Positions 49,788 through 55,124 of a stretch of DNA of 64,000 nucleotides are shown here, piece by piece. This stretch comes from Pseudarthrobacter siccitolerans. Its GTDB lineage: Bacteria > Actinomycetota > Actinomycetes > Actinomycetales > Micrococcaceae. A program made the translations under genes and the position numbers. Position 1 is the stretch's first letter; each line of letters begins with the position of its first letter. Location of the stretch: assembly GCF_001046895.1 (NCBI RefSeq), contig NZ_CAQI01000048.1:124001-188000 (forward strand), written 5' to 3'. The notes beneath the pieces were generated by a model, which saw only the letters and a program-made list of their open reading frames with translations, was not told where the DNA came from and made no database searches.

Positions 49788-52700
49788 GTGTTTTTGCTCG
49801 AAGCTGCAGCTGCCGGCGCGCCGCCGGAGCTGGTGTTTTCTGCCAGCGATCTGGTGGCGGCCAGCGAGTGTGAATACCGCACGCTCCGGGTCCTGGACGA
49901 AAAACTGGGCCGGTCCCCCAAAGCCGACTTCGCAGCGGACGAGATGCAGGTCCGCGCCGGCGAACTGGGCGACAAGCACGAACAGACCGTCCTTGCCAGC
50001 CTGATCGCCAAGTACGGCGAGTGGGATGCCAGCCGCGGTGCGGGTGTGTACTCGCTTGAACGCGGGCAGAACCTGCGCGGGGAGCTCCAGGCCAAGCACG
50101 CGGAAACTGAGCTCGCGCTGCGCTCCGGTGCCGACGTCGTTTTCCAGGCCACCTTCTTCGACGGCGAATTCCTGGGTTACGCAGACTTCCTCGTCAATGA
50201 GGCCGCCGGTACCGGCAGCCCCGGGCGTTACGAAGTCTGGGATACGAAGCTGGCCAGGCATGCCAAAGTAGGTGCCCTGCTGCAACTCGCGGCATACGGG
50301 GACCAGCTCCTCGGGATGGGCCTGGAGCCCTCCCCCACCGTGACCCTCGTGCTGGGAACCCGGGTGGGTGATGACTGGTTGCGCAGCAGCCACTCCCTTC
50401 CGGACCTGTTGCCTGTTTTCCGCGAACGACGCCGGCGCTTCCGCCAGCTCACAGCGGAGCACCGCGCCGCTGATGCCACCGTGCAATGGCAGCAGGCCGG
50501 AATCGTCCACTGCGGCCGCTGCGACTATTGCGCCGAACAGGTACAGGAGCATCGGGACCTGCTGATGGTGGCCGGGATGTCGGTGGTGCAGCGCCGGAAG
50601 CTGCATGCCGCCGGAATCACCACCATCGACCAGCTCGCAGCCATGCCTGCTGAGGAGGCGCGGAACTCCATGGTCCGGCTCAGGGCGCAGGCGCGGATGC
50701 AGCTGGGCCTGGATGCACCCGCCGGATCCAGGACATTCACCAAAGACGGCCAGCCCCACACCGTTTCCTTCACGGTCCTGCCGGAGAACAGCATTGGGGC
50801 GCTCCCGGCGCCGAGCCCGGGCGACATCTTCTTCGACTTCGAAGGCGATCCGCTCTGGCAGGACCCGGCCACTGGCGTATGGGGTATCGAGTACCTCTTC
50901 GGGGTGATCGAAGCACCGGTTGCCGGGCATTCCGGTGATCCTGTTTTCCGTCCGTTCTGGGCGCACTCCCGGTCAGAAGAGCGCCGGGCCTTCCTCGACT
51001 TCCTGGGCTACGTGGAGAAGCGCCGGGCCCGCTATCCGGACATGCATGTGTACCACTATGCCGCCTACGAAAAGACTGCCCTGCGGAACCTTTCCCTGGC
51101 GCACCAGGCCGGTGAGGACACCGTGGACACCTGGCTTCGGGAAGGCCTTCTCGTGAACCTCTACGCCACTGTGCGGCAATCCCTGCGCATTTCCGAAGCA
51201 TCGTACTCCATCAAGAAGCTCGAACCGCTGTACATGGGAGACAACCTCCGCTCCGGGGACGTCAAGGACGCCGGTGCCTCCGTGGTCGCCTACGCCGCAT
51301 ACTGCGCGGCCCGTGATGCGGGTAACGAGGCGGAAGCGGCGGCAATCCTGGCGTCCATCTCCGACTACAACCGGTACGACTGCCTGTCCACGCTTCGTTT
51401 GCGCGACTGGCTGCTGGAGATCGCCGGGCCAGCCGGGACGTCGCCCGCCGAAGCGGTTGTTCCGGGAGCACGGGCCGGTTCATCAGTGGCTGAACCGGGT
51501 GAACGCCCGGCAGCACCGGACCAGATTGCCGGGGCTGCTGAAACTCCCGAAGAGCGCCGGCTGCGCGAATACTTGGCCGGGCTGCCGGACACCCGCCCCT
51601 GGACCGATGATGAACGCGCCATCGCCATGGTTGCCGCGGCTACCGGCTACCACCGCCGCGAACGCAAGCAGTTCTGGTGGCAGCACTTCGACCGGGTGGA
51701 AGCACCTATCGAGAACTGGTCTGACCAGCGGAACGTTTTTGTGGTGTCTTCGGCGGAAGTTACCTCGGAATGGGCGGTGGCCAAGCCGCGGGAACGCATG
51801 CGGACAAGGGTCCTTCGGCTGCGCGGCACCATGACGGAGGGCTCGGACTTCAAAGCTGGCTCGAAGTGGTGCCGGCTCTACGATTCCCCTCCCCCTGAGG
51901 GGATGGCCGCTCCTGACGCCGCTCCCGGTTCGCGGGCGTATACCTTCGCGACCAAGATCAGTGAGGTCGCGCCTGCTCCGGACAATCCGGAGCACACTTT
52001 CATCACCATCACCGAGCGGGAGACCGGCAAGGTTGCCGCCTACCCGCATCTGCCGGTGGCGCTCACAGAAGACAAGCCGATCCCTACGGACAGCATCGAA
52101 GCTGCCATCGCCGAAATTGCCGCCAGCGTCGGAGCGTCAGTGCCTTCGCTGCCGGCCCATCCGGGACTCGACATCCTGCGCAAGCGATCCCCGCGCTTCC
52201 GGACACTGCAGCAACCCGTGGACGTCCCGCACGCCCCTGACGGTTCTGCCGATTACGCCGCGGCGATCACCGAATCCGTCCGCGACCTCGACCGCTCCTA
52301 CCTCGCCGTCCAGGGCCCTCCGGGGACGGGAAAGACCTATGTCGGTGCCCACGTCATCGGCAGGCTGGTAAGTGAAGGCTGGAAAATCGGCGTTGTGGGC
52401 CAGTCGCACAATGTGATCGAAAACCTGCTCTGCTGTGCCATCGCCCAGGGCGGGGTGGATCCGTCCAATGTGGCCAAGAAGCTGATGTCCCCGCACGATG
52501 TTCCGTGGCAGGCCACCGCCGAAGGCGATGTTGCACGGCTCCTGTCCTCCCCCGGCGGCTGCCTGGTGGGCGGTACCAGCTGGATCATGACAGGCAAGGA
52601 GGTGCCGGCCGGCTCACTGGACCTGCTGGTTATCGACGAGGCCGGGCAGTTCTCACTGGCCAACACCCTGGCTGTTTCCCGCGCGGCGAAGCGGCTCCTG

Positions 52701-53429
52701 CTGCTGGGTGATCCCCAGCAGCTGCCGCAGGTCACGCAGGGGGCACACCCGGAACCCGTGGACGAATCGGCGCTGGGGTGGCTGGCTGCGGGGCACGCCA
52801 CGCTGCCGGCCAGCCTTGGCTACTTCCTGGCGGACAGTTGGCGGATGCATCCTGAGCTGTGCCGCGCCGTCTCGCAGCTGAGCTATGAGGGAAAGCTCCA
52901 GGCTGCACCGGCGGCCTCGCTGCGCCAGCTCGAACAGCTGCCGCCCGGGGTGGAAACGGTCTTCGTCAACCACAGCGGCAACGCCACCGCGTCCAAGGAG
53001 GAAGCGGCTGAAGTGGTCCGCCAGGCGCGCCGGCACCTGGGGCTGAAGTGGACGCCCGGCCAGGACAGTGAGTCCCGTCCGCTAGGCCAGGAAGACCTGC
53101 TGGTAGTTGCCGCCTACAACGCCCAGGTCCACCTCATCCGGAAGGCCCTTGAGGAGGACGGCCTGGCGGACGTCCGGGTAGGGACCGTGGACAAGTTCCA
53201 GGGCCAGGAGGCGCCGGTAGTGCTTGTCTCGATGGCCTGCTCTGCCGTCAGCGAGGCACCCCGCGGCGCCGAGTTCCTGCTGAACAGGAACCGCATCAAC
53301 GTGGCGGTCTCCCGTGGCCAGTGGCGGGCCGTGATCATCCGCTCCCCCGAGCTCACCAGCTACATGCCGCACCGGCCCGCAGCCCTGGAGGAGCTGGGCG
53401 CGTTCATCGGGCTGAGCCCAAGGGAATGA
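49788..53429 (+). CDS. TM0106-family RecB-like nuclease fused to RNase H-like and superfamily 1 helicase domains
   Basis: A 1213-residue DNA-processing enzyme. The N-terminal RecB/Cas4-type nuclease (about 1-270) contains GEYEVWDTKLARHA-like catalytic region (YEVWDTKL) and a Cys cluster HCGRCDYCAEQ near 242, suggesting an Fe-S site. An RNase H-like domain follows (IFFDFEGDPLWQDP near 345). The C-terminal DNA2-like SF1 helicase has GPPGTGKTYVGA (about 843), VIDEAGQFSLAN (about 947), LLGDPQQLPQV, and RINVAVSRGQWRAV (about 1169). The start is GTG at 49788 with GGGGAGG upstream. The biological role is not established; repair or plasmid/phage defence are both possible. Confidence 0.9.
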   Translation: MFLLEAAAAGAPPELVFSASDLVAASECEYRTLRVLDEKLGRSPKADFAADEMQVRAGELGDKHEQTVLASLIAKYGEWDASRGAGVYSLERGQNLRGELQAKHAETELALRSGADVVFQATFFDGEFLGYADFLVNEAAGTGSPGRYEVWDTKLARHAKVGALLQLAAYGDQLLGMGLEPSPTVTLVLGTRVGDDWLRSSHSLPDLLPVFRERRRRFRQLTAEHRAADATVQWQQAGIVHCGRCDYCAEQVQEHRDLLMVAGMSVVQRRKLHAAGITTIDQLAAMPAEEARNSMVRLRAQARMQLGLDAPAGSRTFTKDGQPHTVSFTVLPENSIGALPAPSPGDIFFDFEGDPLWQDPATGVWGIEYLFGVIEAPVAGHSGDPVFRPFWAHSRSEERRAFLDFLGYVEKRRARYPDMHVYHYAAYEKTALRNLSLAHQAGEDTVDTWLREGLLVNLYATVRQSLRISEASYSIKKLEPLYMGDNLRSGDVKDAGASVVAYAAYCAARDAGNEAEAAAILASISDYNRYDCLSTLRLRDWLLEIAGPAGTSPAEAVVPGARAGSSVAEPGERPAAPDQIAGAAETPEERRLREYLAGLPDTRPWTDDERAIAMVAAATGYHRRERKQFWWQHFDRVEAPIENWSDQRNVFVVSSAEVTSEWAVAKPRERMRTRVLRLRGTMTEGSDFKAGSKWCRLYDSPPPEGMAAPDAAPGSRAYTFATKISEVAPAPDNPEHTFITITERETGKVAAYPHLPVALTEDKPIPTDSIEAAIAEIAASVGASVPSLPAHPGLDILRKRSPRFRTLQQPVDVPHAPDGSADYAAAITESVRDLDRSYLAVQGPPGTGKTYVGAHVIGRLVSEGWKIGVVGQSHNVIENLLCCAIAQGGVDPSNVAKKLMSPHDVPWQATAEGDVARLLSSPGGCLVGGTSWIMTGKEVPAGSLDLLVIDEAGQFSLANTLAVSRAAKRLLLLGDPQQLPQVTQGAHPEPVDESALGWLAAGHATLPASLGYFLADSWRMHPELCRAVSQLSYEGKLQAAPAASLRQLEQLPPGVETVFVNHSGNATASKEEAAEVVRQARRHLGLKWTPGQDSESRPLGQEDLLVVAAYNAQVHLIRKALEEDGLADVRVGTVDKFQGQEAPVVLVSMACSAVSEAPRGAEFLLNRNRINVAVSRGQWRAVIIRSPELTSYMPHRPAALEELGAFIGLSPRE

Positions 53430-53943: not shown

Positions 53944-54861
53944 TTAGTTGATGGTGATGTCGCGGGTGCTGTGGTTGTAGCGGATGGTGACCGTGCCGCC
54001 GTCGTGGTACAGCTCGTGGTTCGGGCCATCGAAGGTGCCGAAGGCGCCGTAGTTTTCGCTCCAGGACCGGTTCAGGGCGATCTTGAAGGTGTAGTGGCCG
54101 GCCGGCAGTTCAGCGGTCTTCTTCCAGAGCTGATCCAGGAAGTCGAACTCCATCTGCGCTTCGTCGTACTGCGGAGCCCAGTTTTCGGGCGCACCAAGGA
54201 TGGTGTTGAAGTCGCCTGCAACAGCCACTGCCTCAGGCTGCGGAAGCGTCTCAACATCCGGGCCCTCAAACGGTTCGGCTGCAGCGGCAGCCTCATCAGC
54301 CTTGGCCGGAGCCTTGCCCTTACGAACTGCCTTCACCACGGGCTCAACGGCGTCTTCGATGACCTTGGCAGCCTTGCCCACAGCCGCGGCGGCCTTCTTG
54401 GCAGGAGTCTTCCGGGCGGTCTTCTTGGTTTCCGTCTTGGCGGCCGGCGCCGGAACTTCAGCAACAGCGGTGGTCTTACGGACGAACCCTGCGGGAGCCG
54501 CAGGAACCGGAATGTCGGCAGGAACAGGAGTGCCGGCGTCGAGCGCGGTAGCGAAGGACACAGCGTCCGGGTAGGCCACCGTGGCACGCATGCCGTCCTC
54601 GGTGATTGTCCAGCCGGAGCGGCCCTTGACCAGCCAGCCCGCCTTGACGAGCTTGGCGGTGGCGGAAGTCAGCGTCTTGTGCCCGCGGGGAATCCCGCCG
54701 CTGAGCAGTTCGGCTTCGTGCTCGTTGAACGGCACGCGTGCCGTAGCCTCCGCGAGGACCTGCCCCGCGTTCAGTGCATCACCGGACCACACACCTTCGG
54801 TCAGGACATCCAAAACGGTCTTGAGTCGAAGGAAGGTGTTTTCTGCGGTGGACTTGGCCAT
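53944..54861 (-). CDS. winged-helix-like domain / Lys-Ala-rich linker / X25 starch-binding domain fusion
   Basis: A 305-residue protein of unusual make-up. Residues 1-100 look like a winged helix of Mrr-N type (GHKTLTSATAKLVKAGWLVKG then RSGWTITEDGM). A basic linker at about 130-195 (KTETKKTARKTPAKKAAAA and similar) is like histone H1 tails. Residues about 215-305 match the X25 domain of pullulanases (AVAGDFNTILGAPENWAPQY; LPAGHYTFKIALNRSWSENYG; VTIRYNHSTRDITI), which binds alpha-glucans. No signal peptide, so it is cytosolic. GGGGAA precedes the ATG. A DNA- and glycogen-binding role is inference. Confidence 0.78.
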   Translation of the reverse strand: MAKSTAENTFLRLKTVLDVLTEGVWSGDALNAGQVLAEATARVPFNEHEAELLSGGIPRGHKTLTSATAKLVKAGWLVKGRSGWTITEDGMRATVAYPDAVSFATALDAGTPVPADIPVPAAPAGFVRKTTAVAEVPAPAAKTETKKTARKTPAKKAAAAVGKAAKVIEDAVEPVVKAVRKGKAPAKADEAAAAAEPFEGPDVETLPQPEAVAVAGDFNTILGAPENWAPQYDEAQMEFDFLDQLWKKTAELPAGHYTFKIALNRSWSENYGAFGTFDGPNHELYHDGGTVTIRYNHSTRDITIN

Positions 54862-55124
54862 GATTCCCCTTTTATAAAAGCGATCGGTCTTAGGCATCTT
54901 GCCAACTGCCCGTTACATCGCGCGACTTGAATTGGTTAACTCTGCGTGTCGTGACCGACTATGAAGCGGAAATTCCGACAAGTGAGCCTGGAGTATCGGG
55001 TGTAGGGCTGGCTGCACAACCCCGGAGTGATTCCACAGGTTCCGCCCTGCACCCCTCCGGACACGCCTGCGGCACCAAGTTTAGCGGCAAGTCGGCGCGG
55101 TTGTTGTCTGGGACACAGCGGGCG

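Follow-up and report, generated by a model that had tools for sequence, protein, structure and literature searches.

A winged-helix/X25 fusion protein conserved in Pseudarthrobacter and related genera, a candidate adaptor between DNA and alpha-glucan

A gene of Pseudarthrobacter siccitolerans encodes a protein in which a winged-helix domain, of the Mrr_N restriction type by homology, is joined through a highly variable linker to an X25 alpha-glucan module. The sequences place this architecture far beyond chance, given its presence at 55 named loci and in 36 of 37 same-genus genomes. We tentatively read the product, with somewhat less than even confidence, as an adaptor between DNA and alpha-glucan inside the cell, and most likely as a DNA-binding protein that responds to glycogen. 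What carries this reading is the identity of the two domains by sequence, their predicted folds, the conservation of a candidate binding surface on each, the lack of any export or membrane signal, and the broad spread of the fusion in the family. The parts are known, while their combination appears not to have been described: no account of such a protein turned up in the open full-text literature that was searched.

The gene and its product

The open reading frame lies on the minus strand of the window, by which we mean the whole 64,000-nucleotide stretch of DNA that was analysed, and runs from an ATG at 54861 to a stop codon at 53944-53946 (Table 1). The choice of start is supported by the Shine-Dalgarno-like AAGGGGA just 5' of the frame. 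In the AF2 model, built with 38 genus sequences, two folded domains are separated by a stretch with pLDDT <50 at residues 133-203. A preliminary description of this DNA had pictured the gene as a winged helix and an X25 starch-binding domain in one cytosolic protein without any catalytic domain, a system of which no description was known. The two-domain fusion is real, though it is read from the minus strand, and it is conserved in the family. Neither the Pfam nor the NCBIfam scan detected a catalytic domain in the 305-residue protein (NCBIfam gave zero matches of any kind), and a nuclease or McrB-type NTPase domain was likewise absent from both. A cytosolic location agrees with the absence of a signal- or transmembrane-type hydrophobic segment, the top Kyte-Doolittle mean over 19 residues being 0.87. 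Our literature searches, too, found no described system of this kind.

Table 1. Features of the fusion gene and its product, in window positions
Feature	Residues	Position	Strand	Basis
ORF, 305 aa, winged helix - linker - X25		53944..54861	minus	ORF reading, profiles and relatives
Mrr_N-type winged-helix domain (by homology)	1-98	54568..54861	minus	Mrr_N matches, Mrr identity, AF2
Putative recognition helix	57-73	54643..54693	minus	DSSP on AF2 model; role inferred
Beta-hairpin wing (predicted)	77-86	54604..54633	minus	AF2 model and conservation
Linker, variable in length and charge, second half disordered	99-207	54241..54567	minus	pLDDT, charge
Lys/Ala-rich patch, net +9	138-183	54313..54450	minus	Not conserved outside the genus
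X25 alpha-glucan module (binding predicted)	208-305	53947..54240	minus	PF22058, VIA
W228, aligned with Sca5 W620	228	54178..54180	minus	HMMER alignment and conservation
K260, aligned with Sca5 K654	260	54082..54084	minus	HMMER alignment and conservation
W267, aligned with Sca5 W661	267	54061..54063	minus	HMMER alignment and conservation
Shine-Dalgarno-like AAGGGGA		54864..54871	minus	Similar across genus alignment
Upstream element GTCACGACACGCAGAGTTAACC, 22 bp		54934..54955	minus	Conservation within genus

The N-terminal domain

The Mrr_N profile (PF14338) matches residues 15-93 of the window protein with 17.5-20.4 bits and an E-value of 5.7e-4, short of the Pfam cut-off of 29.5, and it is picked up at E <=0.1 in 27 of 27 family members including the window protein, with a best E-value of 8.6e-9. 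A PF14338 search of the organism's own genome returned nothing at E 0.001 or better, which, like the score below the cut-off, counts against the adaptor reading. Homology to the Mrr endonuclease, which combines Mrr_N with a catalytic Mrr_cat domain (PF04471), is seen most directly in a protein annotated as Mrr on an Ideonella plasmid. This protein matches residues 1-103 (tblastn E 7e-6 in the plasmid collection), with an E-value of 4e-13 and 43 of 106 columns identical (41%) when the single pair is compared by BLASTP; it carries Mrr_N at E 4.7e-11 and Mrr_cat at E 2.2e-25. According to a review, Mrr-N is the presumed DNA-binding part of the enzyme, with a winged helix proposed from modelling (PMC3874153). 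The window protein differs from Mrr in having an X25 module instead of Mrr_cat, in its near-universal spread, and in having no known restriction activity.

Structure prediction of both ends of the protein, proposed in the preliminary description, was carried out, and for the N-terminus it yielded the winged-helix fold that had been anticipated. The best AF2 model of residues 1-112 reached a pLDDT of 86.3 and a pTM of 0.83 (the other four models fell from 67 to 54), and its elements come in the order long helix, helix, short helix, helix, two-strand wing, helix, helix. The structural neighbours found by VIA-align are mostly winged-helix proteins, with MarR, PadR, DtxR/IdeR, NsrR and putative DNA-binding proteins high among them and CggR also present, at Z <=8.3. 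Foldseek alone gave zero matches at E 0.001 or better, and the sequence profile of the domain had no match in the PDB. Since the structural matches are mixed and do not exceed Z 8.3, they are taken as support for the fold and not for the function; the sequence relationships are the better guide.

The candidate DNA-facing surface is well conserved. Residues 57-67 and 69-73 are helical by DSSP on the AF2 model, and R59, K62 and K73 within them are conserved. In an alignment of 104 rows, at least eight of which repeat a place, R59, G60, K79 and W84 are invariant (104/104), residue 73 is always Lys or Arg (104/104), and R81 is Arg in 102. This conservation bears on a different reading of the domain, namely that it is a dimerisation or protein-protein module by which a soluble factor brings an enzyme or another partner to glycogen, much as eukaryotic non-catalytic adaptors do. 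The structural matches also include methyltransferase dimerisation domains, MukE, the Hel308/Brr2 helicases and cullin winged helices, and the winged helices of cullin WHB and of O-methyltransferase N-terminal domains serve as protein interfaces. The near-neutral charge of the domain, a net of only +1, fits an interface as well and counts against the adaptor reading. We nevertheless consider an interface module unlikely, in view of the basic residues of helix and wing, which are invariant or nearly so, and of the nearest sequence relatives outside the family, which are restriction-system proteins.

The X25 module

The starch-binding-type domain expected at the C-terminus is well supported. The X25_BaPul_like profile (PF22058) matches residues 212-300 with an E-value of 7e-19 and 68.2 bits, against a cut-off of 27, and it matches 26 of 26 family members, the window protein included; Pullulanase_Ins (PF18494), which is not the X25 accession, gave no match even in controls. 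The model is an X25 beta-sandwich, with two short parts of pLDDT <50 (AF2). By VIA it superposes on the Bacillus acidopullulyticus pullulanase 2wan with Z 9.8 (rmsd 2.4, 88 aligned), on SusF 4fe9 with Z 8.8 (rmsd 3.0, 90 aligned), on Sca5 X25-2 7rpy with Z 8.3 (rmsd 2.5, 84 aligned), on Amy703 with Z 9.4 and 9.1, and on SusE with Z 7.5. The X25 domains of the pullulanase, of Ruminococcus bromii Sca5/Sas20 and of SusE/SusF are thus of the same fold (Z 7.4-9.8). These proteins, however, are secreted or sit on the cell surface, and several of them carry X25 in tandem, whereas the window protein has a single X25 and no export signal.

The W/K/W contacts of Sca5 X25 are common to the window protein. 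W228, K260 and W267 are invariant in 104 of 104 rows from ten genera (at least eight rows repeat a place), and they align with Sca5 residues that contact maltotriose, W620, K654 and W661, the equivalent of W661 in Sas20 being essential for binding according to the paper on them (PMC9112005). The HMMER alignment behind this correspondence is weak, with an E-value of 0.021 for the chain; the Sca5 numbering was computed from chain positions, one offset fitting all three residues, and for the Sca5 Asn contacts the same alignment shows no clear conservation. Would such a module bind glucan at all? It could have been captured to stabilise or space the protein and bind no glucan, which would leave a DNA-binding protein only. 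Two reports offer some precedent: removal of X25 hardly altered a Bacillus pullulanase (PMC4712565), and no binding of maltooligosaccharides was seen for the X25 lobes of Sca5 taken singly (PMC9112005). That the three residues never vary across ten genera, in which the linker drifts freely, speaks against a mere spacer, and we hold this reading to be improbable.

The module also invites comparison with the AMPK-type glycogen-binding domain (PF16561), which gave weak matches in 17 of the 26 family members at E <=0.1 (best 1.6e-5) and was not listed in the Pfam scan of the window protein itself. We propose the CBM48-like glycogen-binding domain of AMPK beta as a likeness, being a non-catalytic glycogen sensor, and claim no membership. 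It differs from the X25 here in its setting, as it is part of a kinase complex while the X25 is fused to a domain of DNA-binding type.

The linker

The preliminary description had likened the Lys/Ala-rich linker to histone H1 and counted it among the working parts of the protein. The basic patch is there in the window protein (Table 1), but the linker as a whole, which includes 14 acidic residues, has a net charge of only +2, and outside the genus, where linkers are mostly acidic, its basic character is not conserved. Within the genus (69 rows) the linker takes up 54-122 residues and has a median net charge of +2 (range -5 to +12); in other genera (35 rows from 28 places) it takes up 0-141 residues, with a median of -5 (range -23 to +6). 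Counted by place, it is net negative in 20 of the 28, zero in five and positive in three, and it is practically absent in three. Going by the sequences, the histone-like look belongs to some lineages only and is not a defining part, so a histone-H1-like linker is not supported as a part of the mechanism. The three practically linker-free fusions, L130, L131 and L132, have frames of 230-249 aa and make up three of the five zero-charge places.

Spread of the fusion

The phylogenetic spread of the architecture, which the preliminary description had marked for checking, takes in ten genera of the family, the own genus with 36 of 37 genomes among them. Named records of Arthrobacter, Pseudarthrobacter and Paenarthrobacter yielded 55 loci in a search with short patterns, which reaches near relatives only, with 58-96% identity in the best segment (L054 is cut by a contig end). 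Among the 37 same-genus genomes, the own one included, the protein is in one stretch in 30 and in two pieces in six, and G033 is without it. A separate sample of the family, counted by hand, gave the N-domain protein in 24/24 genomes of the own genus, in 15/15 of g28, 10/10 of g29, 21/22 of g45, 5/5 of g49, 18/21 of g52 and 23/23 of g53, and in 1/3 of g38, 1/1 of g39 and 1/1 of g51; in G248 the N-domain appears in two frames. The X25 was confirmed in fetched loci, with at least one for each of the ten genera and not in all 119 genomes. Nearly all genomes of the own genus have the protein, and so do nearly all of six other genera for which the sample held at least five genomes. A chance or frameshift fusion is rejected on the strength of conservation over ten genera.

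Some genomes hold a second copy. At L120:1033-1800, on the minus strand, a divergent winged-helix/X25 protein with a 256-aa frame occurs beside the standard one in the genome; its N-domain matches at E 5e-4 and its X25 at E 3e-10, Mrr_N was not detected, and it is not an enzyme. In a tree of X25 domains L120 had been grouped wrongly, and no conclusion on the origin of the domain was drawn from that tree. Another genome, G075, has two copies of the fusion (L122 and L114) with different linkers.

Relatives of the N-domain outside the fusion

The N-domain was matched in 123 of 295 family genomes, and in 119 of them in frames of 207-463 aa. The others (G169, G222, G236 and G256) showed only frames of 709-728 aa and were dropped before the glgC count given below; all of these but G256 were read and look McrB-like, and the similar L116 was Pfam-scanned. 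In the order, 17 of 297 genomes had a match, 14 within the family and three in other families, two of the latter being McrB-like AAA+ proteins. The third, L160, has from position 1185 onward, on the plus strand, a 217-aa frame in which N-domain-like sequence follows another stretch, adjoining a frame that resembles an ABC-type ATPase by eye. In the class there were matches in 18 of 345 genomes, four of these inside the family. Ten of the 13 new loci were Pfam-scanned at E 1e-5 (L210, L211 and L213 were left out). Five of the ten gave AAA_5, while Mrr_cat, DNA_binding_1 and AMP-binding came up once each, the last probably by chance, and two had no match; X25 was seen in none of the ten at that threshold. 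Short X25 proteins may occur elsewhere in the order. The phage collection gave two matches, both X25-only; in the plasmid collection, most of the protein was matched on an Arthrobacter replicon of megabase size, and two records matched by X25 only, besides the Ideonella Mrr. By sequence comparison, then, the relatives of the N-domain examined outside the family are mostly Mrr nucleases or McrB-like ATPases, and none carries X25. The N-terminal Mrr_N of the McrB-like AAA+ proteins is homologous to that of the window protein, which lacks their AAA+ motor.

This kinship raises the thought that the protein serves in defence, as a factor or decoy that arose from a Type IV restriction system when X25 took the nuclease's place, and that it perhaps reads sugar-decorated phage DNA. 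Apart from the Mrr_cat and McrB-like relatives just described, the evidence runs the other way. Nuclease and NTPase domains were not found in the Pfam and NCBIfam scans, and the gene is near-universal in several genera and mostly syntenic within the genus, whereas defence genes tend to be patchy in spread. Going by PMC9112005, X25 is known for alpha-1,4-glucan chains and is not known for single glucose units linked to a base. We consider a role in defence very improbable.

Neighbouring genes, the upstream element and glycogen genes

The position of the gene is mostly conserved inside the genus. Its neighbours encode, by Pfam, an acylphosphatase, adenosine deaminase and a protein of the RNase_H_2/helicase kind; then comes a gene that we take by eye to be UvrA-like. 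In the fetched flanks of the 55 named loci an eye count found add in 50 and acyP in 49, sometimes several kb away. The two stand beside the gene in few other-genus loci, a count in which shared neighbours may be missed, as the frame picker often chose antisense frames; with so little sharing, no functional link was drawn from the notion of an operon. The RNase_H_2/helicase neighbour (49788-53429 of the window, plus strand) is a 1213-aa protein with RNase_H_2 and helicase-type AAA domains by Pfam, and relatives of it lie near the fusion gene in another genus (L190, L191 and L199).

Within the genus, no part of the 150 bp ahead of the start codon is better conserved than the element GTCACGACACGCAGAGTTAACC, whose mean column identity is 0.93 against 0.75 elsewhere, and it has one perfect copy in the own genome. 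It may act as an operator for autoregulation, belong to a promoter or mark where a leader begins. As evidence for a regulon sharing this operator it was rejected: a search of the whole own genome allowing up to 3 mismatches gave 20 sites, and the reversed control gave 36. Of 21 loci from other genera, 20 lack the element upstream of the gene, and L124 has a loose match. Around the gene Rfam gave no RNA family, a promoter scan found none, and a terminator scan found no more than in shuffles.

There are no glycogen genes among the window neighbours. The own genome does have glgC, and an alpha-amylase with two C-terminal X25s (its N-terminus lies outside the fetched stretch). A strong glgC match (E 1.9e-113 or better) was found in 119 of 119 genomes carrying the N-domain protein, against 99 of 176 non-carriers (better than about 1e-50), absence of glgC standing for 57 weak matches and 20 blanks in a reading by hand. 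A naive Fisher test gives 8e-22 but takes no account of phylogeny; the association is confounded by it, and at the genus level it is weak, with few independent events.

The presence of that amylase adds some weight to another possibility: a maltodextrin-sensing one-component regulator, whose X25 would sense free maltooligosaccharides, taken up or released, and not polymeric glycogen. The anatomy would be the same, the near-linkerless members are compact like one-component regulators, and the tandem X25 Sas20d2 binds maltoheptaose at 0.61 µM. Yet other affinities are poor, with 912 µM for maltotriose (Sas20d2) and about 300 µM for maltooligosaccharides in SusF modules (PMC9112005), and there is a single X25 here; the directly adjoining genes in the window are not maltose genes. 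We find a sensor of free maltodextrins rather unlikely.

Discussion

How might a DNA/alpha-glucan adaptor of this kind work? The Mrr_N-type winged helix would dock on DNA, probably as a dimer, while the X25 would grip an alpha-1,4-glucan chain through W228, K260 and W267, residues whose conservation is plain and whose role in binding is here presumed. In the cytosol the ligand would most likely be glycogen, since a strong glgC match was seen in all sampled carriers of the N-domain protein. Because binding by one X25 alone may be weak, it may take both X25 arms of a dimer to clamp a chain. The most likely use would be regulatory: growing glycogen particles would collect the protein, its occupancy on DNA would change, and through this change one or more promoters would be informed of how large the carbon store is. 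The same adaptor might instead serve as a structural tether of glycogen to the nucleoid. We prefer the glycogen-responsive DNA binder to a passive tether, since both surfaces are kept even where hardly any linker is left; with practically no linker, as in L130-L132, a compact regulator fits better than a long tether.

CggR-type one-component sugar regulators likewise have a winged helix and a ligand domain in one chain. The ligand domain of the window protein differs in that it would be a polysaccharide-binding beta-sandwich, a kind of ligand domain that is not known from one-component sugar regulators. Literature searches found no bacterial protein that links glycogen to DNA. In E. coli, glycogen condensates are reported to push the nucleoid aside by mutual exclusion, and a shift of the division site by the condensates has been proposed by the authors (PMC12706056).

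The lineage may have adopted the reader domain of a Type IV restriction enzyme, replaced the nuclease by an X25 module like those of its amylases, and so made a housekeeping coupler of chromosome and glycogen, through which the size or place of the store controls expression or nucleoid position; we offer this as a speculative extension, less likely than not. If the Mrr_N-type domain still reads methylated DNA, such coupling could also depend on DNA methylation. The adaptor would, besides, be a case of a reader domain of restriction recruited for metabolism. A conserved, single-gene candidate in Arthrobacter would make the reading of a carbon store by a protein that holds both polymers directly testable. 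For the soil bacteria of the Arthrobacter group, the fusion suggests that sugar store and chromosome may be linked in the cell.
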